Of a stretch of 64,000 bases of DNA, positions 4,069 to 62,718 are shown one piece after another. This DNA is from Caballeronia sp. Lep1P3 (GTDB lineage Bacteria; Pseudomonadota; Gammaproteobacteria; Burkholderiales; Burkholderiaceae). The stretch is taken from NCBI RefSeq assembly GCF_022879595.1, contig NZ_CP084265.1, forward strand, positions 682,001 to 746,000, written 5' to 3'. Position 1 is the first letter of the stretch, and each line of letters starts with the position of its first letter. The notes under the pieces were generated by a model. That model did no database searches. It was not told the DNA's origin and worked only from the letters and a program-made list of their open reading frames with translations. A program made the position numbers and the translations under genes.

Positions 4069-4827
4069 TTATTTGGGCTGCATGCGAATGGCGCCGTCCA
4101 GCCGGATCACTTCGCCGTTCAGCATCGGATTGTCGAAAATCTGCTTAACGAGCATCGCGAATTCATCCGGCTTGCCGAAGCGCGACGGGAACGGCACCAT
4201 CGCGCCGAGCGCCGTCTGTACGTCGGGCGGCATGCCGAGCAGCATCGGCGTTTCGAAGATGCCGGGCGCGATCGTCATCACGCGGATGCCGCTTCGAGCG
4301 AGGTCGCGCGCAATCGGCAGGGTCATGCCCGCGACGCCGCTTTTCGATGCCGCATACGCCGCCTGGCCGATCTGCCCGTCGTAGGCCGCGACCGACGCCG
4401 TGTTCACGATCACGCCGCGCTCGCCGGCGGCGTTCGGCTCGTTCTTCGACATTGCGTGGGCCGCGAGCCGGATCATGTTGAACGTGCCGATCAGATTCAC
4501 CGCGACGACCTTGCTGAAGAGATCGAGCGGATGCGGGCCGTCGCGTCCGACCGTTTTCGACGCCGGCGCGATGCCCGCGCAGTTCACGAGACCGCGCAGC
4601 GTGCCGAGCTTCGTCGCGGCATCGACGGCGACCTCGGCGTCTCTTTCCTGGCTCACGTCGCATTTCACGAACACGCCGGACAGTTCGCGCGCGAGCGCTT
4701 CACCCGCGGCTTCGTTCATGTCCGCGAGCACCGGCTTGCCGCCATGCGCCGCGACGAGGCGCGCGCTCGCCGCGCCCAGTCCCGACGCGCCTCCGGTAAT
4801 CAGCACGACGTTGTCCTTCATCTCCAT
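4069..4827 (-). CDS. Short-chain dehydrogenase, 3-hydroxyacyl-CoA dehydrogenase type
   Basis: A 252-residue classical short-chain dehydrogenase/reductase. The NAD-binding glycine motif TGGASGLG lies at about residues 11-18, the structural NCAG near residue 83, and the catalytic Ser and YAASK in the middle third. Overall it resembles the type II 3-hydroxyacyl-CoA dehydrogenase (HSD17B10-like) branch, which oxidises the 3-hydroxy group of acyl-CoAs in fatty acid or branched-chain degradation. The substrate is inferred from family resemblance only. The first ATG is chosen because an AAAGGAGA ribosome site sits about 8 nt upstream; a second ATG lies two codons later. It is probably monocistronic. 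Confidence 0.85.
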
Positions 4828-10014: not shown

Positions 10015-10596
10015 ATGGAACATACGCTCCCGCCGCTGCCGTTCGCCAAGAACGCGCTCGCTCCGCACATGTCGGAAGAAACGCTCGAGTTTCACTATGG
10101 CAAGCACCACCAAACCTATGTGACGAAGCTCAACGAGCTGATCCCGGGCACCGAATTCGAGAACATGCCTCTCGAAGAGATCGTGAAGAAGTCGTCGGGC
10201 GGCGTGTTCAACAACGCGGCTCAGACGTGGAATCACACGTTCTTCTGGAACAGCCTGTCGCCGAACGGCGGCGGCGCTCCGGCCGGCGCACTCGCTGACG
10301 CCATCAACGCCAAGTACGGTTCCTTCGACAAGTTCAAGGAAGAATTCGCGAAGGTCGCCGTGGGCACGTTCGGTTCGGGCTGGACGTGGCTCGTGAAGAA
10401 GACCGACGGCTCGCTCGACATCGTGTCGACGAGCAACGCCGCGACGCCGCTCACGACCGACAGCAAGCCGCTCATCACGCTCGACGTGTGGGAGCACGCT
10501 TACTACATCGACTATCGCAATGCGCGTCCGAAGTTCATCGAGGCTTTCTGGAACATCGCCAACTGGGATTTCGCTTCGAAGAATTTCGGTGCCTGA
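10015..10596 (+). CDS. sodB: Superoxide dismutase, iron type
   Basis: A 193-residue cytoplasmic superoxide dismutase. All four metal ligands are present: His27, His74, Asp157 and His161 in [11 protein letters not shown]. The [20 protein letters not shown] segment with Gln70 is typical of the iron-dependent branch, where the outer-sphere glutamine comes from the middle of the chain. The gene has its own promoter and an AAGGAAG ribosome site before the ATG, and ends at a strong terminator. Confidence 0.97.
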
Positions 10597-10651
10597 TCTC
10601 GGCGTCATGCCGATTCAAAACCGGCCTGCAACGCGGCGCCGGTTCGAGAAG

Positions 10652-10676
10652 AAGCCCTCCACACGGAGGGCTTTTT
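10652..10676 (+). terminator. sodB terminator
   Basis: A 9-bp stem (10652-10660 with 10665-10673), a 4-nt ACAC loop and a run of five T at 10672-10676. Confidence 0.9.
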
Positions 10677-10709
10677 GCTTCTCGTGCTGCCTTTCGTGAA
10701 CCGTCCATC

Positions 10710-10862
10710 ATGAAACGCCTCGCCACACTCTGCCTCGCAACGTGGTCGGCCGCCGCGCTGCTCTATTTCGGCCGGCATTCCGTCGCGTTCATCGTGCTGT
10801 CGGGCGTACTCGCGCTCGCGGGCTTCGATCTCGTGCAGCCGCAGCCGGGCGAAGGCCCGTGA
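10710..10862 (+). CDS. Small hydrophobic membrane protein, unknown
   Basis: A 50-residue reading frame starting MKRLATLCLATWSAAALLYF with two closely spaced hydrophobic stretches (about residues 5-20 and 25-43), consistent with a small inner-membrane protein. It lies after the sodB terminator and overlaps the 3' end of the convergent GT87-type gene by 74 nt, where that protein has a low-complexity tail. I do not recognise a family. It could be a real small protein or a chance frame, and no clear ribosome site is seen. Confidence 0.4.
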   Translation: MKRLATLCLATWSAAALLYFGRHSVAFIVLSGVLALAGFDLVQPQPGEGP

Positions 10863-12102
10863 CGCTCGCGGGCGCGAAGTAGCGCGCGAGACACAGCGCA
10901 TACAGCAGAAAAACCGCGATCGTGTAGTTCGTGCTGCGCGCCGCGACGACGAAGAGCAGAACCGCGCAAGCGGCAAGCAGCAATTCGGCGCGTCTGGGCA
11001 GCAGCGAAAGCCGCGTGTCCCTGCGCTCGAGCGCCGTGCCGAACAGAATGCCGAGCGGAATCAGCACGACGACCAGATGCACCGGCTCCAGCATCGGCGA
11101 TGCGACGAGCATCGTCATCGTCGCGAGCGCGAAGTCTGTGCGGCGGTCAGCGTGGCGTCGCGCGATCAGAACGACGGCGGTCACGCATACGACGGCGGCC
11201 GTCGCCAGCCATACCGCGCCGAGCATCTTCTGCGATGCGCTCATCCCGGCGTTTTCGATGAGCGTCTGAAGCGCGCCGCGCAGCGCGACGTTGATCGGCG
11301 CGCCGCCGAGCATCACGTTCTGCGCGTTGAGGCGCGGCATGTCGGAGACGGCGTAATGCCAGATCGTATGGAAGCCGAGCACGCAGCCCGTGACGCACGT
11401 GAGCGCGACCGATGTCGCGAACGTGGCGATCGCCGTGCGCCATTCGCGCCTCAGAAGCAGCAGCCCGGCGATGGCGAGCGGCGTCACTTTCAGCACGATG
11501 GCCGCGCCGAGGAACACGCCCGCGAGCGAGCGGTTGCCGCGGTCGATGAAGAAGAACGTCGCGGCGAGCAGGAAGAACAGCAGTTCGTTGGACTGGCCCC
11601 AGTAGACATCGTCGAAGAAGGGGCGGCTCAGCAGCGCGAGCGCGATGAACAACAGCGCGACGCCGCGATCCTCGCCCCGATACGCGAGCTTCGCGACCAT
11701 CGCGACGCCGAGCGCGAAGAGCAGCATCGATCCGAGCACCCACACGCTCTTCGCCGCAGCCGGCGACAGCGCGCCGAGCGGCGAGAACAGCAGCGCGAAT
11801 TGCGGCGGATACGCGTAGAAGACGTCCATGCCCGTCGTGCGCGCGCCGATCGAGCGCAGGAACGTGACGAGCCCGTGGTGATCGTAGAGCACGGTCGCAT
11901 CGGCGGGATGGCGCAGCACGGTCGTGAACGCGTACAGGTAGTAGTTGAAGTCGCTGAAAGCATCGGCGGGATCGGCGTGGAACTGCGCGAGCACGCGCGG
12001 CATGTGCGCCGCGATGATGCCTATGGCGACCGCAATCAGCACGGTCGAAATCGTGGCGAGACTGGGCGCGGATTTCCCCGCGCCGGCCCGTGTGGTGAGC
12101 AT
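10789..12102 (-). CDS. GT87/DUF2029-type membrane glycosyltransferase
   Basis: A 437-residue polytopic protein with about ten hydrophobic segments. FYAYPPQFALLFSPL and DVYWGQSNELLFFLLAATFF match the GT-C-fold GT87/DUF2029 family, whose characterised members are polyprenyl-phosphate-sugar-dependent mannosyl- or arabinosyltransferases. The early aspartates in DPADAFSDFNYY fit the first extracytoplasmic loop of GT-C enzymes. It is the last gene of a run with an SMR-like protein (49 nt upstream) and a HAD-UbiA fusion, suggesting it uses a lipid-linked sugar made and flipped by those two. The acceptor is unknown. The C-terminal 27 residues are Arg/Ala-rich and poorly constrained. Confidence 0.75.
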   Translation of the reverse strand: MLTTRAGAGKSAPSLATISTVLIAVAIGIIAAHMPRVLAQFHADPADAFSDFNYYLYAFTTVLRHPADATVLYDHHGLVTFLRSIGARTTGMDVFYAYPPQFALLFSPLGALSPAAAKSVWVLGSMLLFALGVAMVAKLAYRGEDRGVALLFIALALLSRPFFDDVYWGQSNELLFFLLAATFFFIDRGNRSLAGVFLGAAIVLKVTPLAIAGLLLLRREWRTAIATFATSVALTCVTGCVLGFHTIWHYAVSDMPRLNAQNVMLGGAPINVALRGALQTLIENAGMSASQKMLGAVWLATAAVVCVTAVVLIARRHADRRTDFALATMTMLVASPMLEPVHLVVVLIPLGILFGTALERRDTRLSLLPRRAELLLAACAVLLFVVAARSTNYTIAVFLLYALCLARYFAPASVTGLRPAAAARDRSPRARVRPTAR

Positions 12103-12151
12103 GGCAATTCCCCGTTGTGCGGCCTTTTGTTATGGATAAACGCGCCGGGCG

Positions 12152-12511
12152 TCAGGCCGTGGTTGCCGCCGGCGCGTAAAGCAGAACGACGCTTGCAATC
12201 AGCAGCGCGGCACCGGCGAGCGTGCGCAGCGACATCGCTTCGCCCAGCACGACGCCGAACGCCATGATTTCGAGCAGCGTTACGGTGACCATCAGCGGAT
12301 ACGCGACGCTCAGTTCCACGCGCTTCAACGCGAGCGCATAGAGCACGAAGCCCGCGCCATACGCGCCGATTGCGCCGAGCCGGTACACCAGCGCACGCGC
12401 GTCCATGCCGAAGAGAAGCGCGCCGCCTTCCGGCAGCCTTCCCGCGAGGCGCAACAGAATGCTCGCGAGCGCACCGCACGTGCCGCTGAAAAGAAGCGTG
12501 AGGTATTGCAT
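12152..12511 (-). CDS. SMR/EamA-type small membrane protein, possible lipid-sugar flippase subunit
   Basis: A 119-residue protein with four predicted transmembrane helices in the EmrE/ArnE-ArnF arrangement. SVAYPLMVTVTLLEIMAFGVVLGE in helix 3 and the final ALLIASVVLLY helix are typical of the superfamily. The start is taken at the ATG at 12511 (MQYLTLLFSG), which places helix 1 correctly and leaves a 20-nt gap to the upstream HAD-UbiA stop. Drug efflux is possible by family. Its place between a polyprenyl-phosphate transferase and a GT-C enzyme makes an ArnE/F-like flippase for a lipid-linked sugar the better inference. Confidence 0.7.
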   Translation of the reverse strand: MQYLTLLFSGTCGALASILLRLAGRLPEGGALLFGMDARALVYRLGAIGAYGAGFVLYALALKRVELSVAYPLMVTVTLLEIMAFGVVLGEAMSLRTLAGAALLIASVVLLYAPAATTA

Positions 12512-12531
12512 GAAGAGGAACGAGTTGGCGC

Positions 12532-13953
12532 CTAAATCGCGATGACCACCGTCGCGATGCACAGGCAAATGACGAAGAGACTCAGCCGGTTTTTGATGGC
12601 ATAGACGATCGGGTCATCATGCATCTCGCCGCGAAACGCGAGCATCCACACGCGGCTGACCCAGTAGAGCAAGAGCCCGAAGAGCACCCAGAGCGCGTGC
12701 GGATGCCGGTACAGCAGCCGCACGTCCGCCGAGTTCAGATACAACGCCAGCACCAGCACGGCGACATAGCCCGATGCCGTGCCGAACGAGCGCAGGATGC
12801 CGAGGTCCTGCGTGTCGTAGCCGCGCCCGGCGGCGGAGGCCTTGCCGTCGCGAAGAAGGGCGTCGAGTTCGGTGTAGCGCTTCACCATCGCGAGGCTCAG
12901 GAAGATGAGCACCGAAAACATGATGAGCCAGTCCGACAGCACGATGTCCGCCGCCGCGCCGCCCGCGACGATGCGCGACGTATAGAGCGCGGCGAGCGTG
13001 AAGACATCGACGAGCATCAGGCGCTTGAGCTTGAGCGAATACGCGAGCGTCGCGATGAAATAGCCGCCGAGCACGAGCTGAAAGCGCGGCTCGATCTGCG
13101 CCGCGAGCGCCGCCGATGCGACGAGCAGCGTCACCGTCAGCGCCATGCCGAAGGTGAGCGGCAATTGCCCCGACGCGAACGGCCGGTTGCGCTTTTTCGC
13201 GTGACGGCGATCCGCGTCGAGATCGAGCATGTCGTTGAGGAGATAGACCGCCGACGCGCAGAAGCTGAACGAGAAGAACGCGATGGTTTCGTCGAGCAGC
13301 ATCGCGGGATCGGTGAAGCGGTGCGATGCAAGCAGCGGCACGAAGATCAGCAGGTTCTTGACCCACTGATACACGCGCATTTCCTTGAGCGTGAGACGCA
13401 CGAGCGAACGTTTTTCCTCGAAAAACACGATCGTCTTGTTCACTTTCTCGGCCGCCGCCGCGATGTGCCGGTTGCCCACGACGATAGCCTGCCGCGACTC
13501 CTTCCACACGGGCACGTCGGCGAGCGCGTTGCCGCAATAATCGAAGCCGTGTGCGCCGAACTCCTTCGTGAGCGCGCCCGCCTTCTGGCTGCCTTTGAGA
13601 TTGCGCGCGTCGTCGCTCGCGAGCACGCCCTTGAAGATGCCGAAGTGCGTGGCGATCTGTTCGGCCACCTGCTGATTCGACGCCGTGCACAAATATAGAT
13701 CGCGTCCGGCTGAACGCTGCTCCTGCAAATAGGCGAGAAAGCGCGCGTTGTACGGCAGCACGGACACGTCGATGGCCACGCGCTGCGCGATCTGCGCCTT
13801 CAGATACGCCTTTCCGCGCAGCAGCCAGACGATGCACCACAGCGCATAGACCGGATTCTTCTTCACGAGCACGAGAAACGATTCGACGAGCAAATCGGTG
13901 GCGGTCAGCGTGCCGTCCAGATCGACGCACAGGGGAACGCGAGCTTCGGCCAT
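12532..13953 (-). CDS. HAD phosphatase-UbiA prenyltransferase fusion
   Basis: A 473-residue two-domain protein. The N-terminal HAD-like phosphatase (about residues 5-190) has the DLDGT nucleophile motif at 11-15 and LCTASNQQVAEQIA as motif II. The C-terminal UbiA domain (about 195-473) has eight or nine hydrophobic helices and the first aspartate motif NDMLDLDADRRH. UbiA enzymes closest in style include decaprenyl-phosphate phosphoribosyltransferase, which makes a phosphorylated sugar that then needs a phosphatase, and a fused HAD domain fits that order. It is the first gene of a three-gene run with the SMR and GT87 proteins. Substrate identity is inference. Confidence 0.85.
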   Translation of the reverse strand: MAEARVPLCVDLDGTLTATDLLVESFLVLVKKNPVYALWCIVWLLRGKAYLKAQIAQRVAIDVSVLPYNARFLAYLQEQRSAGRDLYLCTASNQQVAEQIATHFGIFKGVLASDDARNLKGSQKAGALTKEFGAHGFDYCGNALADVPVWKESRQAIVVGNRHIAAAAEKVNKTIVFFEEKRSLVRLTLKEMRVYQWVKNLLIFVPLLASHRFTDPAMLLDETIAFFSFSFCASAVYLLNDMLDLDADRRHAKKRNRPFASGQLPLTFGMALTVTLLVASAALAAQIEPRFQLVLGGYFIATLAYSLKLKRLMLVDVFTLAALYTSRIVAGGAAADIVLSDWLIMFSVLIFLSLAMVKRYTELDALLRDGKASAAGRGYDTQDLGILRSFGTASGYVAVLVLALYLNSADVRLLYRHPHALWVLFGLLLYWVSRVWMLAFRGEMHDDPIVYAIKNRLSLFVICLCIATVVIAI

Positions 13954-14191
13954 GATTTCCTCGTTGCGCGGATTCGTCTTGGGATTCGGACGGGCGTCGC
14001 CGAACCGTTTGGCTCACAGAATAACGAGCGCCCTTTTCCCGGCTCTGTGCGTTAGGACACTTCTGTTGCGCGCCTAAGAACGTACCGTATTCCTTCTCGG
14101 CGCTTTTGTGAATTGTTCGGGATCGCTTGCTTTTGCGGCGGCGCGGCGACGCGGCGGCGACAGCGGCGGCGCATGAATCGGCCGCCCGCAA
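13954..14191. other. Upstream region of the HAD-UbiA gene
   Basis: No gene seen. It probably holds the promoter of the HAD-UbiA/SMR/GT87 run (minus strand), but I could not identify convincing -35/-10 elements. Confidence 0.35.
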
Positions 14192-14217
14192 CAAAAAAGC
14201 CTTCCACGCGGAAGGCT
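14192..14217 (-). terminator. Terminator of the EAL-domain gene
   Basis: Read on the minus strand, an 8-bp stem (arms 14198-14205 and 14210-14217, 4-nt loop) runs into six T. Confidence 0.88.
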
Positions 14218-14242
14218 CTCGAGCGGAACATCGCACGATCCT

Positions 14243-15517
14243 TCAGAGGCGTTTCGGCGCGCCTTCCCAGTTGATATCGACGCAGAGCACCTGCAGGCCG
14301 TAAGGCGTTTGCGCCGCAATCGAAGCGGTCACGCACAGATGCGCCTCGTTGATCGACAGATACGGCGCGGTCAGATGCACGCGAGCCGGCGCGCGCAGCG
14401 CCTCGATGAAATACGGGCGGCGTTCCCAGCTCGCGCCTTCGGAATGAAGCAGCGGACTGAAGCGCTTCGCGCGCTGCGACGCGCGCACGACGGGCACGAC
14501 GTTGTCGCCGATCTGCCGGCCCGCGTGATCGAGCAGGAAGCAGCGGGCGGTATCGGCGAGCTGGCGCAGTTCGCTCGTTGCGGCGGCGAGCGTTTCGCCT
14601 TCCATCAGCTTGACCGATGCGCGTTCCAGCCCGCTCACGTAAGGCTCGAGCCGCGCGGCCTGCGCACGCTCGCGCGCGGCCACGCGTTCGCGCGATGCCG
14701 CCGAGAGCGCGTCCATCGTGCTCGCGGCGGCATCGCTGTGCACGGCATCGACGCTCGGTTGCGCGAAATACGCGCCCTGCACGAAGTCGACGTTGCATTC
14801 CAGCGCGATGAGCGCGTCGCGTTCGGTGGCGAGACCGCCCATCAGCACGAGCTGGCCGGATTCATGCAGCAGCGAGACGAGGCGCGGCAGCACGCGCTCG
14901 ATATGCGAATGCTCGGTGGCCTGCTGAAGAATGCAGCGGTCGAGCGACACGATATCCGGCCGCAGTTGCCACACGCGGTCGATGTTCGAATGCTTCACGC
15001 CGAAGCCGTCGAGCGCGATCAGAAAGCCCGACTTGCGCAGCGAATCGACGATTCCGGTGAAGCGCGTCGTCTCGCCGCCCGCCTGTTCGGGCACTTCGAG
15101 CACCACGCGCTGCGGCGGCAAGCCGATGTCTTTCAGCGCGGCGAGGAGCGCGTCGCCGTAGCTCGTGTCCATGAGCGCAGCCGGGTGCAGGCTCAGAAAG
15201 AGCCATTCGTCGTGGCTGTCGAACGCGTTGAAGTTGCCGAGATGAAGCGATTCCGCGAGCCGGCCCAGTTCCAGCAGATCACCGCGCCGCGCCGCCTGCG
15301 TGAAGACTTCGTGCGACGGCACATGCCGATGCGCGTCGTCGCGCGCTCGCAGCGACGCGTGATACCCGATCGCGCGCCGGTGCGACACCGAAAACACCGG
15401 CTGGAACACGCTGAAGACCGTGTATTCGCCATACAGCACCGTGCGACGCGAGCCGTCGTCGCCCGCGACGGGGCGCGGCGGCTGGAAGCGGGGAGGGTCG
15501 AGATCAACCATGCTCAT
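14243..15517 (-). CDS. Degenerate EAL-domain protein with C-terminal sensor-like domain
   Basis: A 424-residue cytoplasmic protein. Residues about 28-255 have the EAL phosphodiesterase fold pattern (FSVFQPVFS, VLEVPEQ, ALDGFGVKHSN), but the signature is lost. The EAL tripeptide is HAS at 53-55, so the metal-binding glutamate is a histidine, and other catalytic positions also differ (LDGFG for DDFG, SLDRCIL for the lysine motif). It is therefore unlikely to hydrolyse c-di-GMP and more likely binds a ligand or partner. The C-terminal part (about 290-424, with YLSINEAHLCVTASI) resembles the sensor domain that follows EAL in YkuI-like proteins. The gene appears single, with its own terminator. 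Confidence 0.8.
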   Translation of the reverse strand: MSMVDLDPPRFQPPRPVAGDDGSRRTVLYGEYTVFSVFQPVFSVSHRRAIGYHASLRARDDAHRHVPSHEVFTQAARRGDLLELGRLAESLHLGNFNAFDSHDEWLFLSLHPAALMDTSYGDALLAALKDIGLPPQRVVLEVPEQAGGETTRFTGIVDSLRKSGFLIALDGFGVKHSNIDRVWQLRPDIVSLDRCILQQATEHSHIERVLPRLVSLLHESGQLVLMGGLATERDALIALECNVDFVQGAYFAQPSVDAVHSDAAASTMDALSAASRERVAARERAQAARLEPYVSGLERASVKLMEGETLAAATSELRQLADTARCFLLDHAGRQIGDNVVPVVRASQRAKRFSPLLHSEGASWERRPYFIEALRAPARVHLTAPYLSINEAHLCVTASIAAQTPYGLQVLCVDINWEGAPKRL

Positions 15518-33494: not shown

Positions 33495-33861
33495 TCAGTG
33501 TTTGTTGCCGATAAAGCCCACGATCACATACACCGGAATGCCGCTCATTTGCGCGATGCACGGCGCATGCGTGAGGCGCAGCGTGAATAGAACGGTGCCG
33601 AGATTGCACAGGTAAGAAACGAGCGCGACGACGAGAAAGCGCACTGCCGAATCGCGCATGGCGGCCGCCTTGAAGGTGAACTCGCTGTCGAGCGCGAAAC
33701 GGACCGCGATGCCGATGCCGTATCCGATCATGTTCGCGATCACAGGACGGCTGCCCGCCGCTTGGCGCCGAAGATGTCGCGGCCGAGAACACGGTATCGA
33801 GGTCACCGACGAGCGGATATCTCAGGAATTGCAGACGGATGTCGGCGACCGACGCGCGCAT
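33495..33861 (-). pseudogene. GtrA-like membrane protein remnant, frameshifted
   Basis: Two pieces of a GtrA family protein lie in different frames. The first piece, from the ATG at 33861, reads LQFLRYPLVGDLDTVF, the usual opening of GtrA proteins. After a disruption near 33770-33800 the frame changes and continues ANMIGYGIGIAVRFALDSEF, then RFLVVALVSYLCNLGTVLF and VYVIVGFIGNKH, helices 2-4. Part of helix 1 seems missing. GtrA proteins flip or present polyprenyl-linked glucose or similar sugars in surface polysaccharide pathways. The total of 367 nt is not a multiple of three, which supports loss of function. Confidence 0.65.
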
Positions 33862-34207
33862 AAGAAGTTGAATTAGGAGTGGATAACGCAGATGACAGGC
33901 TTTCAAAACTCCCGGCGCTTCTTGACGCTCCGTTGGCGCGCCCAGTTGTGGGCCATCATGCGTGCGGGCGCTGCCTTGCCCAACGCGCTGACGCGCGAGG
34001 CCGTCGCTCGTCGCTCACAGGACGAATTCCCGGTCCGATGGTTCGCTCACGTTGGCAGTGCAAGCGTTGGTGCGGTGGACCACCTTCGTGGCCAGAAAAT
34101 TCGGCGAACATGCGCATTCCGTTCGGAACGCTCGCACGACTTCATGCGGCTTGGGTGACACGGCACGCCGCGCTCACTGGAATCGCGCATAGCCTTTGGA
34201 GAACTAC
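33862..34207. other. Spacer before the 407-aa membrane protein gene
   Basis: A frame opening at 33892 shows no family resemblance and no hydrophobic or motif structure. I regard it as non-coding or as debris of the GtrA locus. Confidence 0.4.
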
Positions 34208-35431
34208 ATGCCCGATGCTCCGATTCGACGCCGCAGCGCCGCCTGGTTCCTGTTGGCCGTGATCTACTATCTGGTCGCGGCGGCAGCGTTCCACGGTTAC
34301 TTCGCGAAGTGGAAACTCCGAGACGACACCCCCCAGTCTGCGTTGCCCACCATGCTCGAAGGGACGAGCGATCGTCCTTTTGTCTACAGGCGGCTCTTGC
34401 CGGCCATCGCCAATGAAGCGGAGCGGGTCACACCGGAGGCGCTTCGCGCACGCGCGATAGATTGGCTTTTTGCGGACGGACGCGCGCACGGCCCGATTGC
34501 CTGGTTCTACCCGGACGCCTCGGACGCGCGCAACCCCAAGTACGCGCTTCGTTATTACATGGTGTTTTACCTGTCTTTCACGGCGCTGTTTCTGGCGATG
34601 TTCGCTATGCGCGCCGTGTGCCTGGCGTTGAAGGCAGACACAGTTTCGAGCACGCTCGCGCCAATGGTTATCGCAGCGGCTTTGCCGCTAATTCTTACGG
34701 AAGGGGGCTATTTCTACGACTTTCCCGAATTGCTGTTTATGGCGCTCGCGGTCTGGATGGCAGTCACGGGCCGCGGTTTATGGCTGCTCGTGGTGACGGT
34801 GGTCGCAACGTTCAACAAGGAATCGTTTCTGTTTTTTACGTTGACGCTGTATCCCTTTTTGCGGGCCAGTTTCTCAGAGCGGAAAACCTTGACGCTCCAG
34901 GCATGCATGTTGGCGCTTGCAGGGGCGGTCAACATGCTGATCAAGCTACGCTATGCGCACAACGGCGGAGGAATGGTCGAATATCACCTGCTGGACAACC
35001 TGGCTTTCCTTGCTCATCCGATGAGCTACCTGCGCTTCGAATACAACTACGGCGTGGTGACCCCCAAAGGCTTTAACGTCATCTTTCTTGCGATCGCCGT
35101 GTTGCTTCTGCGAGCGGGCTGGAGCCGCCTGCCCGACGCAGTGCGGCGTCACGTGTGGATCGCGCTTGCCGTCAATGTGCCGCTGTTTCTCCTGTTCGGT
35201 TTCCACGACGAGTTGCGGAACCTGAGCATGTTATTGATCGGCGTGCTGATGATCGTGAGCGTGAACATTTCGATTTGGCTCAATCAGCGTGAGGCCGTGG
35301 CTAATGTTCGCGAACGAGTCGGCGGCGCGGCGCTGAGCTCTTCGTCAAGAATGGGACATGGATCGAGTGCGGATTCGCCAGTCGCGAGAGGACAGTACCA
35401 AGCGCGCGGAAGCGAAGGAGGCGGGGAATGA
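34208..35431 (+). CDS. Polytopic membrane protein, unknown function
   Basis: A 407-residue protein with about nine hydrophobic segments between residues 15 and 355 and a soluble, Ser/Gly-rich tail of about 50 residues. Conserved-looking patches include RPFVYRRLLPAIAN, GGYFYDFPELLFMALAVWMA, FNKESFLFF and FHDELRNLSMLLIG. The pattern (Arg-Pro-Phe-x-Tyr-Arg early, Phe-Asn-Lys-Glu in the middle) resembles polytopic glycosyltransferase-like proteins of O-antigen regions, but I cannot name a family. The ATG at 34208 is preferred because GGAG lies 6 nt upstream. It follows the GtrA remnant, which would suit a polysaccharide context. Confidence 0.65.
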   Translation: MPDAPIRRRSAAWFLLAVIYYLVAAAAFHGYFAKWKLRDDTPQSALPTMLEGTSDRPFVYRRLLPAIANEAERVTPEALRARAIDWLFADGRAHGPIAWFYPDASDARNPKYALRYYMVFYLSFTALFLAMFAMRAVCLALKADTVSSTLAPMVIAAALPLILTEGGYFYDFPELLFMALAVWMAVTGRGLWLLVVTVVATFNKESFLFFTLTLYPFLRASFSERKTLTLQACMLALAGAVNMLIKLRYAHNGGGMVEYHLLDNLAFLAHPMSYLRFEYNYGVVTPKGFNVIFLAIAVLLLRAGWSRLPDAVRRHVWIALAVNVPLFLLFGFHDELRNLSMLLIGVLMIVSVNISIWLNQREAVANVRERVGGAALSSSSRMGHGSSADSPVARGQYQARGSEGGGE

Positions 35432-36885
35432 GCCTTTAATCGCGCGGTGCATGGCGTCGCGTATGAATTGACGCGAAGTCTTCTTCGAAGAATAGGCGGC
35501 CGGCCGAAGCAAGTACATGGCCTTGCGGCTCTGCGCAATGGCATTCAGGACATCGACAATGGGGATGTCTGCATGGGCAACTCGCTGTGAACTTGCCGAA
35601 TGACCAAGCGGTGGCCACGCTCGACATCGGTGGAATCGGCTTCTACAGCGTCAGAATATCGCCGATGTCGGCGGTCTGATGAATGCGGCGTTCGTGCCTT
35701 ACGTGAGCAAGACGCGCTGCCCATTTCTCGCGTCTCTCTGGGATCAACGAGTGAAGACGAAAGCGTGCCGGGAGACCCGCCAAAGCCTGCAGCGGTCGGG
35801 CGCTCGCGTGACCGGGCGGACCGGCCGGCTTAGTCCCAAGCGCTTGGTTCGGCAGAAAGCGTGCGCCGCTTCAGCAGCGGGATCGACGGGGCGCGTCGCT
35901 TAATAGCATCGTCGAGCGAGATTTAGAAAGCGTCGCTTCCGTGCGAGGAGGCGCGTCAGCGCAGGAGCGCTCTTTCGCGGAAAGGAAGTCGAGATGAGCA
36001 GCGCCTCCGGCGACCGGCGGTTCAGGTCGATTCGGCGCCCAAGCCCCGACAGCCGGCGGACTCGTGAAGACGTCACCTAGCGGCTCTCATCCTCGCTGCG
36101 ACGGATTACCTGTCAGCCTCCGTTCACACACGAGCGACCACCTTCGGCCGTTCGCCACGGCAATCAAACCGCGCAGCGTCGCCGCCATCTCTGCGGCGCG
36201 CGGCTGATTCGATCGTTGTGCGTCGCGTAGTCCATTCAACCGGTGCGTATCACGCCCACAGCGCGCGTTTCCATTCGCGCCGGTTTTCAGCCAGCAGACT
36301 TCCGCTCGGATCGAGACCGCTCATGGATGCTCCATGCGGCGCGCCCGTCGCTTGAATCGACTCGCGCATGCACGCGGGGCGCTGCCCGATATGCAGGCCG
36401 CCTAACGATGGCGATGACCGATCCACCCGCGCAGCTCGCGAACATTCCTGACTTCTTCGTGCACAGCCAACGCGAACCAGCCCGTCAAGAACGTCACGGC
36501 AAGTCTTGCCTGTCGCGTTCTACCGGGCGGTAAAGCCGTCTTCGCAAGAAAGCGCTGAGCAGAACGCGGCACCGGTAAGGCTTGTTGCGACGGTTCGCGA
36601 CCGCACAGCAATGCCCCACCGTTTGCGCGTCCGTCCTCGGCAAAAAATACGTAACTGCATCCGGTGTGCGTTTAAACCGATCCTATAACTACCGACGTCG
36701 TGGCTTTCTGCCGCAACAATGCGACGATTCTTTCCGAATACGCAAACGGTTGCGAATGTTTTTTCTACTTACGTTATGAACATACGACGCCTTTTGCTAT
36801 CTCGGAACTGTTACTTTTCGAAACGTTTGCGGTCGTTTTTGGACCATATACTTCGGCCTCCTTCAGCAAACATGAATAAATTCCC
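35432..36885. other. 1.45-kb stretch without a recognisable gene
   Basis: All reading frames are short and arginine- or serine-rich in the manner of chance frames in GC-rich DNA. From about 36640 to 36880 the composition becomes markedly more AT-rich than the rest of the window, which may mark a transcription control region for the Tat lipoprotein gene or imported DNA. Confidence 0.5.
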
Positions 36886-39537: not shown

Positions 39538-39885
39538 ATGGAAAGCGAAGGCAAGGCAAGGAAGCCCACAGGGACGCGATATTCGGATGAGGTCCGTGAG
39601 CGAGCGGTGCGGATGGTGTTCGAGCACCAACACGAGTATCAAACGCAGGGAGCGGCGATCCGCTCGATCGCCTCGAAGATGGGGATGTCGCGCGAGACGC
39701 TTCGCAACTGGATCATTCAGGCTGAGCGTGACCGTGGCCAACGAGCGGGCGCGACAACTTCGGAGCTGGCGCGTCTGAAGGAATTGGAGCGCGAGAATCG
39801 TGAACTGCGCACGGCCAACGAGATCCTGCGCAAGGCCTCTGCATATTTCGCGCAGGCGGAGCTCGACCGCCGATCGAAGCCATGA
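39538..39885 (+). CDS. IS3 family transposase OrfA
   Basis: A 115-residue DNA-binding OrfA. The helix-turn-helix (about residues 12-60, [17 protein letters not shown] and [12 protein letters not shown]) is followed by a leucine-zipper-like coiled coil ([20 protein letters not shown]). Its stop overlaps the OrfB start (ATGA), with OrfB in the -1 frame as usual for IS3. Coupling or frameshifting would yield the fused active transposase. Confidence 0.93.
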
Positions 39886-40778
39886 TCGCGTTCATCGACG
39901 AGCATCGCGACGTCTACGGTATCGAGCCGATCTGCCGCCTGCTGCCGATCGCGCCGTCGACGTATTACCGCCACGCCGGGCGGCGCAGCGATCCGGAGCA
40001 ATGGCCAGCACGAGCGCGTCGCGATATTGAACTGAAGGCCCTTATCCGGGCGGTCTGGGACGAGAACTTCGGCGTGTATGGAGTGCGCAAGGTCTGGCGC
40101 CAGTTGTTGCGCGATGGCGTAAAGGTGGCCCGCTGCACGGTTGCGCGCCTGATGAAGGTGATGGGCCTCGAAGGTGTGCGGCGTGGGCGCCGGATCAAGA
40201 CGACGCAGCGCGACGATGCGGTGCCGTGCCCGCTGGACCGGGTCAAACGTCAGTTCCGGGCCGAGCGGCCTAACGCGCTGTGGGTCGCAGATTTTACCTA
40301 CTGTTGGACATGGTCGGGCTTTGTCTATGTGGCCTTCGTGACCGATGTGTTTGCGCGCCGTATCGTCGGCTGGCGCGTGTCGGCATCGATGAAGACTGAC
40401 TTCGTGCTGGATGCGCTGAACCAGGCGTTACACGACCGCCAGCCACCGCCCGGGCTCATTCATCATAGCGATCACGGGTCGCAATATCTCAGCATTCGGT
40501 ACACCGAACGTTTGGTGGACGTGGGCGTTGAGCCATCAGTCGGAACTGTCGGTGACTCTTACGACAACGCTCTGGCCGAAACGATCAACGGCTTGTATAA
40601 GGCCGAAGTCGTGCATCGGCGTTCATGGCGTACGCTCCAGGATGTCGAACTCGCCACGCTCGAGTGGGTGCACTGGTACAACTACCATCGGTTGCTCGGC
40701 CCGCTCGGGTACGTGTCGCCTGCGGAAGCAGAGGAAGTCTACAATCGGAATCTGGTGCGCTCCGCTCGCGCGGCGTAG
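39882..40778 (+). CDS. IS3 family transposase OrfB (DDE integrase)
   Basis: A 298-residue catalytic protein. The HTH_21-type region (about 45-100) is followed by the rve integrase core with the DDE triad: Asp in WVADFTYCW, Asp in HHSDHGSQY and Glu in [10 protein letters not shown]. The C-terminal [19 protein letters not shown] is the usual IS3 ending. It is intact, so the element is potentially active. Confidence 0.95.
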
Positions 40779-48434: not shown

Positions 48435-48959
48435 GCCGAAAAAGACTCAGAGTTGAAAGTGGTGCGTCAGAGCCGCGACGGACGGCGGCAGTACGACGAG
48501 AAAGGCAAGCGCGCACTCATCGAGGCGGCGCTGTGCTCAGGCGTGTCGGTTGCCCGTCTGGCGCAGGAGCATGGGGTGAACGCCAACCTGCTGCGCAAGT
48601 GGATTACGAAATATCTGCTGGAGCGTGAAAAAAACACCGCGCAGGCACCGCCGGACACCATTGCCAGGGAGCACGATCTGTCACCGCCCGCAGGCCAGGT
48701 GATCGACAGCGTATCGGACGGAAGCCCGGATTTGATTAAGCCGACGGCGCAGACTCCAGCACTTTCGCCATTTGTGCCCATCGTTGCGGTGCAATCGGCG
48801 CTTCCAACGCCACCTGTGGTGCCGGTCATGGCGCTCGCGTTACATGTGCGCCTGTCCAATGGTGTCGAGTTTGACATCGGGGACGCTAGCGTCGAGGAAC
48901 TGACCACCGTAGTCCAGATGCTCGGGAGGATACCGTGTTCCGCTTCGACGAAAACCTAA
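48432..48959 (+). CDS. tnpA: IS66 accessory protein TnpA
   Basis: A 175-residue protein with an N-terminal helix-turn-helix (about residues 20-62, ALIEAALCSGVSVARLAQEH and NANLLRKWI), the usual TnpA/IS66 Orf1 domain, then a Pro-rich linker and a C-terminal conserved piece ending VEELTTVVQMLGR. It is required with TnpB and TnpC for transposition in studied IS66 elements. The ATG at 48432 sits inside a perfect hairpin, suggesting translational control. The 3' end overlaps tnpB by 25 nt. Confidence 0.92.
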   Translation: MAEKDSELKVVRQSRDGRRQYDEKGKRALIEAALCSGVSVARLAQEHGVNANLLRKWITKYLLEREKNTAQAPPDTIAREHDLSPPAGQVIDSVSDGSPDLIKPTAQTPALSPFVPIVAVQSALPTPPVVPVMALALHVRLSNGVEFDIGDASVEELTTVVQMLGRIPCSASTKT

Positions 48960-49288
48960 GGGTGTACCTGCACCGCGATCCCGTCGATTTCCGCTACGGC
49001 ATGAACAGCCTGTCGATTCTCGTCGAGCAGGCCATGCATCTGAACCCGATGGACTCCTCTCTTTATATCTTCGGAAACCGCCGTCGTGACAGGGTCAAAA
49101 TCATCGGTTGGGATGGTAGTGGTTTCTGGCTGATGACGAAGCGCCTTGAAACAAGCCGTTTTATCTGGCCCGACAGGAAGACCGAAGTTGTGGCATTGAC
49201 GTCCGCGACGCTGCACGCGCTGCTCGATGGCGATGACATCACTTCGATCCGCGGATATCCACGCGAGGAATATTTGCGCGTGAGCTGA
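48935..49288 (+). CDS. tnpB: IS66 accessory protein TnpB
   Basis: A 117-residue protein of the TnpB/IS66 Orf2 family. VYLHRDPVDFRYGMNSLSIL at the N-terminus and GWDGSGFWLMTKRLETSRF in the middle are diagnostic. It starts with a GTG at 48935 behind GGGAGGA, overlapping tnpA, which implies coupling. Its biochemical role is not established, but studied elements need it. Confidence 0.95.
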   Translation: MFRFDENLRVYLHRDPVDFRYGMNSLSILVEQAMHLNPMDSSLYIFGNRRRDRVKIIGWDGSGFWLMTKRLETSRFIWPDRKTEVVALTSATLHALLDGDDITSIRGYPREEYLRVS

Positions 49289-49320
49289 ACATGGGACGGG
49301 CATGCATGGTCTAATCCGGC

Positions 49321-50901
49321 ATGCCCGCCCAGATCACGATCTCCGCCGACGAGCTCAATGCGTTACTCGCCATGCGCGAGGCGTATGCCACCCTTGAGCG
49401 CGAGCACGAGGAAACCCGCAGCATGCTGCGCCTGGTGAGCGCGGAGCGCGACCTGGCCGAGGAACGGCTGCGTGCCTACCGGCGTGAGCTGTTTGGCGCA
49501 AAGAGCGAAACACGGGATTCGGAGCAGTTCGGGCTGTTCAACGAAGCTGAGGCACTTGGCGCGAATGCGGCGCCCGCCCAGGAAGATACGCCCGAAACGA
49601 AGGTCGGCGCGCATACACGCAAAAAGCGCGGGCACCGCAAGCCGCTCGATCCCGGTCTGCCCCGCGTGATCCGCCGCCACGAACTTCCGGAGGCCGAGCG
49701 TTTCTGTAGCAACGACGGCCATGCCCTGGTCGAGTTCGGCGTGGAAATCAGCGAACAACTCGACGTGATTCCTGAGCAGCTGCGCGTGATCCAGCATCAG
49801 CGGGTCAAGTATGCATGCCCGTGCTGTGATCTGGGCATCAAGGTCACGCTGGCGCCACCGCGTATCATCCCACGAGGACTCCTGACCGAATCTGCACTTG
49901 CCTGGATTGCGACGGGCAAATTCCAGTTTGGCATGCCGCTGTATCGTCAGGCTGGCCTGCTTCGCCGCTTCGGTGGTGATATCTCGTCAAACACGATCGC
50001 AGCCAGCATGGTCAAGGTCGGCCTCGCAACGCAGCCGGTGATCAACCTGATGCGCGACGCGCTGCTTGAGTCAGCGGTGATCCTCGCTGACGAGACGACC
50101 TTCCAGGTGCTCAAGGAGAAAGGGCGCAAGCCGCAGACGAAGAGCTACCTGTGGTGTCAGATAACGGGCACGGGAATCCCGATCTGTTGCTATACCTACA
50201 CGCCGGGTCGCGGGGCGAAGCTGGCTGACAAGCTGTTCGCCGGCGTGCAGAAAGGTGCTGCGCTGATGAGCGATGGCTACGAGGCCTATAACGGTATCGC
50301 CGAGCGGTACAAGCTTGTTCACCTTGGATGTCTTGTGCACGCGCGCCGCTACTTTGTGAAGGCAGAGGAGAACGTCCCAAAGGCCGCACGCACGCCAGAT
50401 CTGCTTGCGACACGCTTCATCAAACTGTTTGGCAAGTTGTTTGCCGCCGAGGCACGCAGTAAAACGTGGAATGCAGACCGGCGTCATCGCCTGCGTCAAC
50501 GCTATAGCGCCCGCGTACTCCAGGTCATCAAGGATCTCATGATCGAGCAGTCTCCAGGGGTGCTGCCCCAGAGCCTGCTTGGCAGGGCACTGACCTATCT
50601 GCGTGAGCAGTGGTCGAAGCTTGTGCGCTACCTCGAGAACGGCGACTGGCCGGCATCGAACAATCCTTGTGAGAATTCCATTCGCCCGTTTGTCGTTGCG
50701 CGTAAGGGCTTCCTGTTCGCAGATACGGTTGCCGGCGCACATGCCAGCGCAAATCTCTTTAGTCTCGTTGAAACCTGCAAGGCCAATGGTATCGATCCAT
50801 ACCGTTACCTGACCTGGCTGTTCGAGCGCCTGCCTCTGGCAAAGACCGCCGACGACTACGAGGCGCTCGTGCCTTGGCGGATGCCGTCCCCCCAGAACTG
50901 A
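49321..50901 (+). CDS. tnpC: IS66 family transposase TnpC
   Basis: A 526-residue transposase. A coiled-coil N-terminus (about 10-60) is followed by a zinc-ribbon-like region (ACPCCDLG) and the DDE_Tnp_IS66 catalytic domain, with Asp in VILADETTFQVL, Asp in MSDGYEAYNGIA and Glu in NNPCENSIRPFVVARKGFLF. The C-terminal LVETCKANGIDPYRYLTWLF is typical. Length is normal and the frame is open, so the element is likely functional. Confidence 0.96.
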   Translation: MPAQITISADELNALLAMREAYATLEREHEETRSMLRLVSAERDLAEERLRAYRRELFGAKSETRDSEQFGLFNEAEALGANAAPAQEDTPETKVGAHTRKKRGHRKPLDPGLPRVIRRHELPEAERFCSNDGHALVEFGVEISEQLDVIPEQLRVIQHQRVKYACPCCDLGIKVTLAPPRIIPRGLLTESALAWIATGKFQFGMPLYRQAGLLRRFGGDISSNTIAASMVKVGLATQPVINLMRDALLESAVILADETTFQVLKEKGRKPQTKSYLWCQITGTGIPICCYTYTPGRGAKLADKLFAGVQKGAALMSDGYEAYNGIAERYKLVHLGCLVHARRYFVKAEENVPKAARTPDLLATRFIKLFGKLFAAEARSKTWNADRRHRLRQRYSARVLQVIKDLMIEQSPGVLPQSLLGRALTYLREQWSKLVRYLENGDWPASNNPCENSIRPFVVARKGFLFADTVAGAHASANLFSLVETCKANGIDPYRYLTWLFERLPLAKTADDYEALVPWRMPSPQN

Positions 50902-61194: not shown

Positions 61195-62718
61195 ATGCCC
61201 GCGCACCGGATGAACATGCGCATGATCAAGGACGTTTTACGACTTAAGTTCGACGGCGGTTTCTCGCATGATCGAATCGCCGCGTCGCTGGGCATTTCCA
61301 AGGGCGTGGTCACGAAGTACGTCGGACTGGCGGGTGCCGCCGGGCTGGATTGGGCGATCGCCTGTGATATGGACGAAGGCGAACTCGAGCGACGGCTTCT
61401 TGGCAAGCCCACCGGACCCGCGGCCTATGCACAGCCCGACTACGGTCGCATACATCAAGAGCTGCGCCGCAAGGGCGTGACGCTGACGTTGTTGTGGGAG
61501 GAATATCAGGCGGAGTTCGCGAATCGGAAGACTTACCGTTACACGCAGTTCTGCGAGCACTATAAGGCGTTCGCAAAACGGCTGAAGCGCTCGATGCGGC
61601 AGATCCACCGTGCTGGTGAGAAGCTATTCGTCGACTTCGCCGGTCCCACATTGCCGTTGACCACGGGGCGTCGCGCGCACATCTTCGTGGCCGCCATGGG
61701 CGCATCGAGCTATACATTCGCGTGTGCCACGCCGGCCGAGACGATGGAGGACTGGCTGAGTGGTATCGCCCGCGCGCTAACCTTCTACGGCGGCGTTCCA
61801 CAACTGATCGTGCCCGACAACCCGCGCGCGATGATCGCCGACCCTGATCGCTATGAGCCTCGCGCCGGCGACACCGTGCTGGACTTCGCGCGTCACTACG
61901 GCACCTCATTTCTGCCTGCACGCGTTTATCGCCCGCAGGATAAGCCGAAGGTTGAAGTGGCGGTTCAGGTGGTCGAACGTTGGATCATGGCGCGCCTGCG
62001 TCATCGCCAGTTCGAGTCGGTCCAGTCGGTGGACGACGCGATCCGCCCGCTACTGAAGAACTTGAACGAGCGCCCGTTTCAGAAGCTGCCTGGATGCCGC
62101 GCCAGCGCGTTCACCGAACTAGACGCGCCGGCCCTACAGCCACTGCCGGTGCAGCCGTATGAGCTCGCGCGGTTCAAGGCAGTAACGGTCGGCATCGACT
62201 ACCACATCGAGATCGATAAACATCGCTACAGCGTTCCGCACGCGCTTGTGGGACTCAAGCTCGATGCGCGCATCACAGCGGGTGCTGTCGAGTTGTTGCA
62301 TCGCGGTCGCCGTGTGGCCAGCCATGCTCGCAATGATCGCGTAGGAGGCTACACCACCGTCGTCGAGCACATGCCGGCGGCACACCGCGCCCATCTCGAA
62401 TGGACTCCGCAGCGGCTTATCCACTGGGGTCAGCAGATTGGCGGCGCCACCGGCGCGCTCGTCGCGCGGCTTCTGCAGGAACAGCGCCATCCCGAGCACG
62501 GCTATCGGGCGTGCCTTGGTTTGCTCTCACTCTCACGTCGCTATGGTCGCGACCGTCTCGAAGCGGCGTGCGCGTTGGCGCTCGAATTGGGTGTACATCG
62601 TTACCGCCACGTGCGCGACATCCTCATCAACAACCGCGACCGCGCGGCAGCGACCACGCCTGTCGAATGGGTCAGTCCAAGTCACGCGCATGTGCGCGGC
62701 CCCAGCTACTACCAATAG
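61195..62718 (+). CDS. istA: IS21 family transposase IstA
   Basis: A 507-residue transposase. The N-terminal HTH (about residues 20-45, FSHDRIAASLGISKGVVTKY) is followed by the rve catalytic core, with Asp in KLFVDFAGPTLPL, Asp in QLIVPDNPRAMI and Glu in PKVEVAVQVVERW, and a C-terminal beta-barrel region (VGIDYHIEIDKHRYSVPHAL). Length and order match IstA. The frame is intact. The ATG at 61195 lies 79 bp after the last terminal box. Confidence 0.96.
   Translation: MPAHRMNMRMIKDVLRLKFDGGFSHDRIAASLGISKGVVTKYVGLAGAAGLDWAIACDMDEGELERRLLGKPTGPAAYAQPDYGRIHQELRRKGVTLTLLWEEYQAEFANRKTYRYTQFCEHYKAFAKRLKRSMRQIHRAGEKLFVDFAGPTLPLTTGRRAHIFVAAMGASSYTFACATPAETMEDWLSGIARALTFYGGVPQLIVPDNPRAMIADPDRYEPRAGDTVLDFARHYGTSFLPARVYRPQDKPKVEVAVQVVERWIMARLRHRQFESVQSVDDAIRPLLKNLNERPFQKLPGCRASAFTELDAPALQPLPVQPYELARFKAVTVGIDYHIEIDKHRYSVPHALVGLKLDARITAGAVELLHRGRRVASHARNDRVGGYTTVVEHMPAAHRAHLEWTPQRLIHWGQQIGGATGALVARLLQEQRHPEHGYRACLGLLSLSRRYGRDRLEAACALALELGVHRYRHVRDILINNRDRAAATTPVEWVSPSHAHVRGPSYYQ

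Follow-up and report, generated by a model that had tools for sequence, protein, structure and literature searches.

The stretch of DNA analysed here (the window) comprises 64,000 nucleotides (nt) of Caballeronia sp. Lep1P3, positions 682,001 to 746,000 of contig NZ_CP084265.1 (assembly GCF_022879595.1). The genome that carries it is 6.2 Mb in size and is referred to as G000. Three consecutive minus-strand open reading frames (ORFs), separated by intergenic gaps of 20 and 49 nt, encode a HAD-UbiA fusion, a small SMR/ArnE-like membrane protein and a GT87 transferase (Table 1). The SMR-like gene is taken from an ATG that yields 119 amino acids (aa); longer ORFs from alternative starts would overlap the upstream gene. 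An earlier note, made from the sequence alone, had reported three adjacent membrane genes with these gaps, the motifs DLDGT (residues 11–15 of the fusion) and NDMLDLDAD (residues 240–248) and GT87 segments. The ORFs, motifs and Pfam results agree with that description.

Table 1. The three-gene locus and other features of the window discussed in the text
Feature	Position in window	Strand	Basis or remark
HAD-UbiA fusion, 473 aa; predicted to act as polyprenyl-phospho-ribose synthase and 5′-phosphatase	12532..13953	-	Pfam, NCBIfam, PDB match
Small SMR/ArnE-like membrane protein, predicted flippase, 119 aa	12152..12511	-	Pfam/NCBIfam matches and linkage
GT87 GT-C transferase, predicted periplasmic-side pentose transfer, 437 aa	10789..12102	-	Pfam GT87
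HAD phosphatase domain, residues 11–147	13513..13923	-	Pfam and alignment
UbiA-fold domain, residues 207–446 (Pfam match); PRPP-pocket residues at 193–377	12616..13335	-	
NDMLDLDAD motif, N240–D248, equivalent of Mg/PRPP-binding N73 and D77 of Rv3806c	13210..13236	-	Alignment; roles as given in PMC10994848
GT87 D51 codon, by motif equivalent of PimE catalytic D58	11950..11952	-	Role as given in PMC12041525
Orphan c7 protein (Pfam-less GT-C-fold family)	34208..35431	+	20 kb from triad
GtrA-family ORF, possibly a remnant	33495..33743	-	50.1 bits, profile positions 29–114 of 117
General short-chain dehydrogenase (adh_short)	4069–4827	-	About 7.7 kb downstream of triad

The fusion matches both Pfam HAD (32.8 bits, cut-off 27) and Pfam UbiA (68.8 bits, cut-off 34.2). 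Its top NCBIfam model is NF006088 (UbiA family prenyltransferase) with 647 bits, and ranks 2–4 are decaprenyl-phosphate phosphoribosyltransferase models, all scoring below their own cut-offs. The closest solved structure of the UbiA half is Rv3806c (PDB 8j8j, E-value = 1.8e-29); the best other solved protein is digeranylgeranylglyceryl phosphate synthase (E-value = 4.5e-5). The residues of Rv3806c that contact phosphoribosyl pyrophosphate (PRPP) are named in PMC10994848, and 10 of these 12 are identical in the fusion when read on the 8j8j alignment: R193, K199, Y237, N240, D244, K254, R257, Y305, K310 and Y324 correspond to R22, K28, Y70, N73, D77, K87, R90, Y138, K143 and Y157 of Rv3806c, respectively. 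The two positions that differ are Q135 and K208 of Rv3806c, which are T302 and R377 in the fusion. According to the same paper, K28, Y70 and Y157 bind the 5′-phosphate of PRPP. The ten identical residues are invariant across 40 aligned sequences picked by the author from fetched loci, the window included. In the HAD half, D11, D13, T90, K124 and D146 are likewise invariant in this alignment, and position 142 is N in 32 sequences and D in 8.

The UbiA fold and the Asp-rich motif are common to the whole superfamily and would also be displayed by an ordinary aromatic-acceptor prenyltransferase whose linkage to the neighboring genes is incidental. We give this explanation almost no credence. The aromatic model ubiA_proteo yields 21.9 bits with the fusion against a cut-off of 275.45, whereas the genome's own 4-hydroxybenzoate octaprenyltransferase (L002, assigned by NCBIfam) gives 317.5 bits. 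L002 keeps 6 of the 10 pocket residues but shows G, C, T and F at the places of K28, Y70, K87 and Y157, such that 5′-phosphate-site residues found in the fusion are missing from it. The aromatic-acceptor identity was rejected on the far-below-cut-off score and the differing pocket. The pocket comparison had been set beforehand in the earlier note as a possible refutation, and the pocket matches the phosphoribosyltransferase Rv3806c and not L002. There is also biochemical precedent: a HAD-UbiA fusion makes farnesyl-phospho-ribose from PRPP experimentally, and with a HAD Asp mutant of the prototype fusion the 5′-phosphate is mostly retained on the product (PMC11127046). The ten pocket identities, together with a HAD match over cut-off, thus favor the proposal that the fusion is a putative transferase of a phosphosugar to polyprenyl phosphate with its own phosphatase.

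The small membrane protein narrowly misses the Pfam cut-offs of both EamA (24.4 bits, cut-off 28.2) and SMR (22.0 bits, cut-off 23.7). Its best NCBIfam model is ArnE with 26.3 bits against a cut-off of 92, and ArnF gives 19.5 against 99; the ArnE/ArnF-EmrE type suggested previously is in keeping with these matches. It is quite unlikely that the protein exports drugs or polyamines as a member of the SMR family and acts outside any sugar pathway. There are weak matches to the EbrB, MdtJ and EmrE models, but all are below curated cut-offs and below the ArnE score. SMR drug exporters carry an essential Glu14 (EmrE numbering) in helix 1, and the window protein has no D or E within residues 1–27, where this residue sits. 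Some match to the protein at E ≤ 1e-3 is found in 77 of 120 family genomes. The close clade (E < 1e-10) is present in 9 of the 120, all of which have HAD-UbiA, and in 8 of the 9 the clade gene is situated no more than 1.3 kb from HAD-UbiA; the match in G104 is counted although it reads through one TGA. The drug-exporter identity was therefore rejected on the missing acidic residue, the sub-cut-off matches and the confinement of the clade to HAD-UbiA genomes. In G040, a genome of the DprE1/GtrA type (see below), the SMR-clade gene is 33 kb from HAD-UbiA and is followed by a 535-residue membrane protein with no Pfam match (L152, 5829–7792).

The arrangement was also followed in a table of HAD-UbiA loci built from the best 80 of at least 561 confirmed GTDB matches and from the loci of the family survey. 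Removal of 5 near-identical rows and 1 short row reduced 105 rows to 99 non-redundant loci, and neighboring genes were counted by six-frame profile searches, SMR on the same strand within 1.5 kb of HAD-UbiA and DprE1 or GtrA within 6 kb. A same-strand SMR gene is found at 17 of the 99 loci, and because it recurs in this way the HAD-UbiA plus SMR arrangement is not due to chance.

The third protein matches Pfam GT87 with 110.7 bits (cut-off 25) and its predicted structure shows a PimE-like GT-C fold, as expected of the GT-C-like transferase put forward in the earlier note. Amino acid positions Y98, Q170, K205 and H342 align with PimE Y92, Q163, K195 and H322 in the profile alignment; D51 and Y55 are matched to PimE D58 and Y62 by motif, outside the profile alignment. 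According to PMC12041525, D58 is the catalytic residue of the mannosyltransferase PimE and H321 makes contact with the C6 hydroxyl of the mannose. Among 34 aligned members of the window clade D51 is invariant and Y55 is Y in 32 and F in 2. The place of H321 is occupied by V (21), I (12) or Y (1), and that of W319 by E, unlike PimE; the comparator P0169 keeps W and H at these two places, as read off its alignment. The clade thus appears to have lost the mannose-C6 contact of PimE. A survey of 60 genomes gave GT87 matches in 3, with 2 over cut-off, and is a small basis for a wide comparison at H321. A further difference from PimE is that the partner donor synthase in the window is predicted to make a pentose lipid.

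The three genes resemble the Citrobacter youngae O1/O2 system (ORF15, ORF14 and ORF12) described by Kelly et al. (2024; PMC11127046), in which the polyprenyl-phospho-ribofuranose made by a HAD-UbiA fusion is employed along with an EmrE/ArnE-like protein and a GT-C transferase. Common to both are a HAD(PRP)-UbiA(PPPRS) fusion, a small EmrE/ArnE-like protein and a GT-C transferase, and as in the Citrobacter O1 form no DprE1/E2 is found. The window locus displays each constituent of a three-component pentofuranose system, i.e. a UbiA domain with the PRPP pocket, a HAD domain with the loop I Asp, the small EmrE/ArnE-like protein and the GT-C transferase. Unlike the Citrobacter transferase, which is a GT136 enzyme with a carbohydrate-binding module, that of the window is GT87/PimE-like with no extra domain seen. 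The window genes stand alone, with no epimerase gene directly beside them, unlike the Citrobacter O-antigen locus, and the system is known here from sequence. The flippase activity of the Citrobacter EmrE/ArnE-like protein is likewise predicted only (PMC11127046).

The mycobacterial decaprenyl-phospho-arabinose pathway, from which the earlier note had taken its logic, also combines a PRPP-dependent UbiA-fold synthase, a phosphatase, a flippase and GT-C transferases. That logic holds but is not new, the nearest known case being the Citrobacter three-component system of 2024. Mycobacteria use Rv3806c with the separate phosphatase Rv3807c, DprE1/E2, Rv3789 and Emb/Aft; in the window the phosphatase is part of the fusion as a HAD domain, and the SMR/ArnE-like protein and GT87 stand where mycobacteria have Rv3789 and Emb/Aft; a search of the genome gave no DprE1 homologue. 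The Arn branch (ArnC, ArnE/ArnF, ArnT) of 4-amino-4-deoxy-L-arabinose (Ara4N) is of the same broad kind, with a small flippase and a GT-C enzyme that uses an undecaprenyl-phospho-sugar, and its donor synthase is unrelated in fold to that of the window. The Ara4N branch was rejected, since the ArnE/ArnF equivalog cut-offs are far from reached.

Taken with the conserved PRPP pocket, the predicted GT-C fold, the recurrent linkage and the absence of a detected DprE1 homologue, the domain make-up indicates that the triad is probably a compact three-component pentofuranose glycosylation operon of the ribose type, with GT87 as the transferase. The UbiA half would use PRPP to place phosphoribose on a polyprenyl phosphate, presumably undecaprenyl phosphate, and the fused HAD half would remove the 5′-phosphate. 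With no DprE-type epimerisation the product would be polyprenyl-phospho-D-ribofuranose. The SMR-like protein would flip this lipid across the membrane, and GT87 may then move the ribose onto an envelope glycan in the periplasm.

The sugar had been left open by the earlier note. A search of G000 with the DprE1 sequence of L041 gave no homologue at E ≤ 1e-3, and because of this D-ribofuranose rather than arabinose is predicted. The same query was run on 32 genomes, 23 with strong HAD-UbiA matches and 9 without. Strong DprE1 matches (E < 1e-120) are found in 13, all HAD-UbiA-positive and all with DprE1 beside the fusion; 7 other genomes show weak partial matches only (best 2.6e-6), 3 of these having HAD-UbiA. 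In the 10 HAD-UbiA genomes without strong DprE1 there is at most a weak partial match (best 8.8e-5), and the same applies to the 9 genomes that lack HAD-UbiA (best 2.6e-6). An arabinose branch in G000 was rejected, as the query finds no match there while it gives strong ones in 13 of the 23 HAD-UbiA genomes. In eight of the 10 HAD-UbiA genomes without strong DprE1, an SMR gene lies on the same strand no more than 1.3 kb away. G023, another of the 10, has no close SMR gene; its HAD-UbiA protein is without profile stretch 194–263 and, judged by this gap, may be inactive. No gene for a GtrA-like (Rv3789) flippase was found beside the window synthase, and the only GtrA among the called window genes is the short ORF 20 kb away.

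In the 99-locus table SMR is near the fusion at 17 loci, DprE1 at 67, both at none and neither at 15. All 67 DprE loci have DprE1. GtrA is near 33 of the 67 DprE1 loci and near none of the 32 loci without DprE1. The 15 loci with neither gene include the contig-edge L061, L039, L064 and L060 (SMR more distant or on the opposite strand) and loci with other large membrane proteins. The mutual exclusion of SMR and DprE1 is exact in the sample, yet few independent switches lie behind it. On a tree, built quickly and with long-branch warnings, the two labels need 5 changes; the independent pairs number only 4, and although every one agrees, the sign test falls short of significance (p = 0.125). The Fisher value of 1e-10 on the table ignores relatedness and is not to be leaned on. 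A HAD-UbiA clade without SMR or DprE1 is formed by L089, L128, L130 and L134, two of which are titled Pedosphaera and one Verrucomicrobia subdivision 3. Downstream of the fusion in L089 and L130 are a protein of about 620 residues and, by eye, epimerase-like proteins; this is perhaps another pentose branch.

Several observations weigh against a ribose-type triad with GT87 as its transferase. The pocket residue Q135, a ribose O3 contact, is not conserved, the small membrane protein scores under the Pfam cut-offs, and PimE W319 is E339 across the whole GT87 clade. In G095, one of the HAD-UbiA genomes without strong DprE1, the SMR-like ORF is found only on the opposite strand, 1.1 kb from HAD-UbiA. 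Among the genes flanking the triad in the window there is no adjoining polysaccharide gene. A GT87 gene of the clade is near HAD-UbiA in only 4 of the 99 loci. Members of the clade without linkage to HAD-UbiA occur in four genomes of the DprE1 type, and another is present in G071, a genome without HAD-UbiA, where the GT87 gene adjoins a GT2-family gene (L144, 6663–8976; the GT87 match reads through one TGA). Finally, an epimerase could act from elsewhere, e.g. a GalE-type enzyme for xylofuranose, or the short-chain dehydrogenase (SDR) at 4069–4827 as an epimerase.

Conversion of the donor by an SDR or GalE-type epimerase to xylofuranose (the conversion made by Citrobacter youngae O2 ORF13) or to another pentose appears improbable. 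The prototype has such an epimerase, and SDR genes are too common for a genome-wide exclusion, with a general SDR present in the window itself. However, the prototype epimerase gene sits within the same cluster, and the window SDR lies beyond several other genes. It gives an E-value of 9.6e-13 with the clean DprE2 profile; among the 25 NCBIfam models shown no equivalog is over cut-off and the best are fatty-acid-type reductases. Judged by the clean profile it is not a DprE2. At 15 of the 17 SMR loci the same profile has no match at all; at the other two, L034 and L036, it picks up just two general SDR genes, one of them that of the window.

GT87 is the least certain component of the pathway. 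The clade (E < 1e-100) occurs in 8 of the 120 family genomes, 7 of which have HAD-UbiA but only 3 beside the GT87 gene. The expectation in the earlier note that the three genes would be distributed together thus holds for the SMR-like gene, and for GT87 in co-occurrence but mostly not in adjacency. At related loci the place of the transferase is taken by c7, a family of about 400 residues without a Pfam match, which is predicted by structure modelling to have the GT-C fold. A c7 profile found no convincing relative in the PDB by sequence (best E-value = 0.06), and in a Foldseek search with the predicted structure nothing reached E ≤ 0.001 (best 9.1e-3). Locus L159 is a split operon with the order HAD, UbiA, SMR, c7, c7, and L160 is an operon of SMR, HAD-UbiA and c7. 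The window protein shows 80% identity over 389 residues to the c7 gene product of the HAD-UbiA-SMR-c7 operon of L040, and window positions 33986–35437 show 86% DNA identity to part of L145 in genome G116.

It is thus conceivable, though we doubt it, that the fusion and the SMR-like protein form the ribose donor branch but that the physiological transferase is c7, with GT87 using another polyprenyl-phospho-sugar or serving as a redundant second transferase. c7 is near 7 of the 17 HAD-UbiA-SMR loci and GT87 near 3, c7 is inside the L159 and L160 operons, and HAD-UbiA is present in 11 of the 12 family genomes that carry c7. The GT2-family gene beside GT87 in G071 could make another polyprenyl-phospho-sugar and pair with GT87. 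However, the c7 gene of G000 is separated from the triad by 20 kb, and those of G081 and G116 are on a different contig, whereas in all three genomes GT87 stays together with an EAL-domain gene, HAD-UbiA and SMR. The GtrA-family ORF beside the window c7 gene is missing the first 28 profile positions. In G116, HAD-UbiA gene fragments are found near the c7 gene (L145, 12066–12385), and elsewhere this genome has a complete HAD-UbiA copy and a contig-edge copy (92% identical). Eight more membrane proteins, encoded close to HAD-UbiA or SMR genes at other loci, are without a Pfam match, out of 10 proteins compared with Pfam.

The type of system has been known since 2024, and what is new here is a GT87/PimE-type final enzyme and a possible ribose/arabinose gene rule. 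HAD-UbiA loci would be of two types that tell the sugar, one with SMR (ribose, EmrE-like flippase) and one with GtrA (DprE1/E2, arabinose). Both would have a GT-C slot that can be swapped, filled in Caballeronia and relatives by two unrecognised families of pentofuranosyltransferase, the GT87 clade without the hexose C6 contact and c7. Our confidence in this wider scheme is evenly divided. A literature search, mostly without full texts and not covering the supplements of PMC11127046 with further systems, found no paper linking the kind of pentofuranose to GT87 or to whether a locus carries SMR or GtrA. If the scheme is correct, the 2024 pathway also exists in environmental Burkholderiales as a chromosomal operon that stands alone, and ribosylated envelope glycans would be worth seeking there. 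A simple gene rule would then predict the lipid-linked pentose, ribose or arabinose, from sequence, and two candidate GT-C families would be available whose donor specificity is testable in the existing farnesyl-phosphate assay.

The EAL-domain gene (Pfam) is upstream of the triad on the same strand, and a superoxide dismutase gene is downstream on the opposite strand (Fe-SOD model 327.6 bits, cut-off 348). In a scan of positions 10550–14400, promoter sites numbered 0 against 0.6 expected and terminator-like sites 5 against 4.0 expected, so no operon boundaries are drawn from it. Plasmid records with relatives (E ≤ 1e-30) number 83, every one with less than 60% identity, and in phages there is a single partial UbiA match, covering 37% of the query at 37.8% identity. 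Confident genes are sparse at 36–64 kb of the window. Mobile-element genes there code for an integrase-core (rve) protein (39882–40778), IS66 Orf2 and an IS66 transposase (48935–50901), and positions 61210–62718 encode a protein with a Mu-transposase C-terminal domain.

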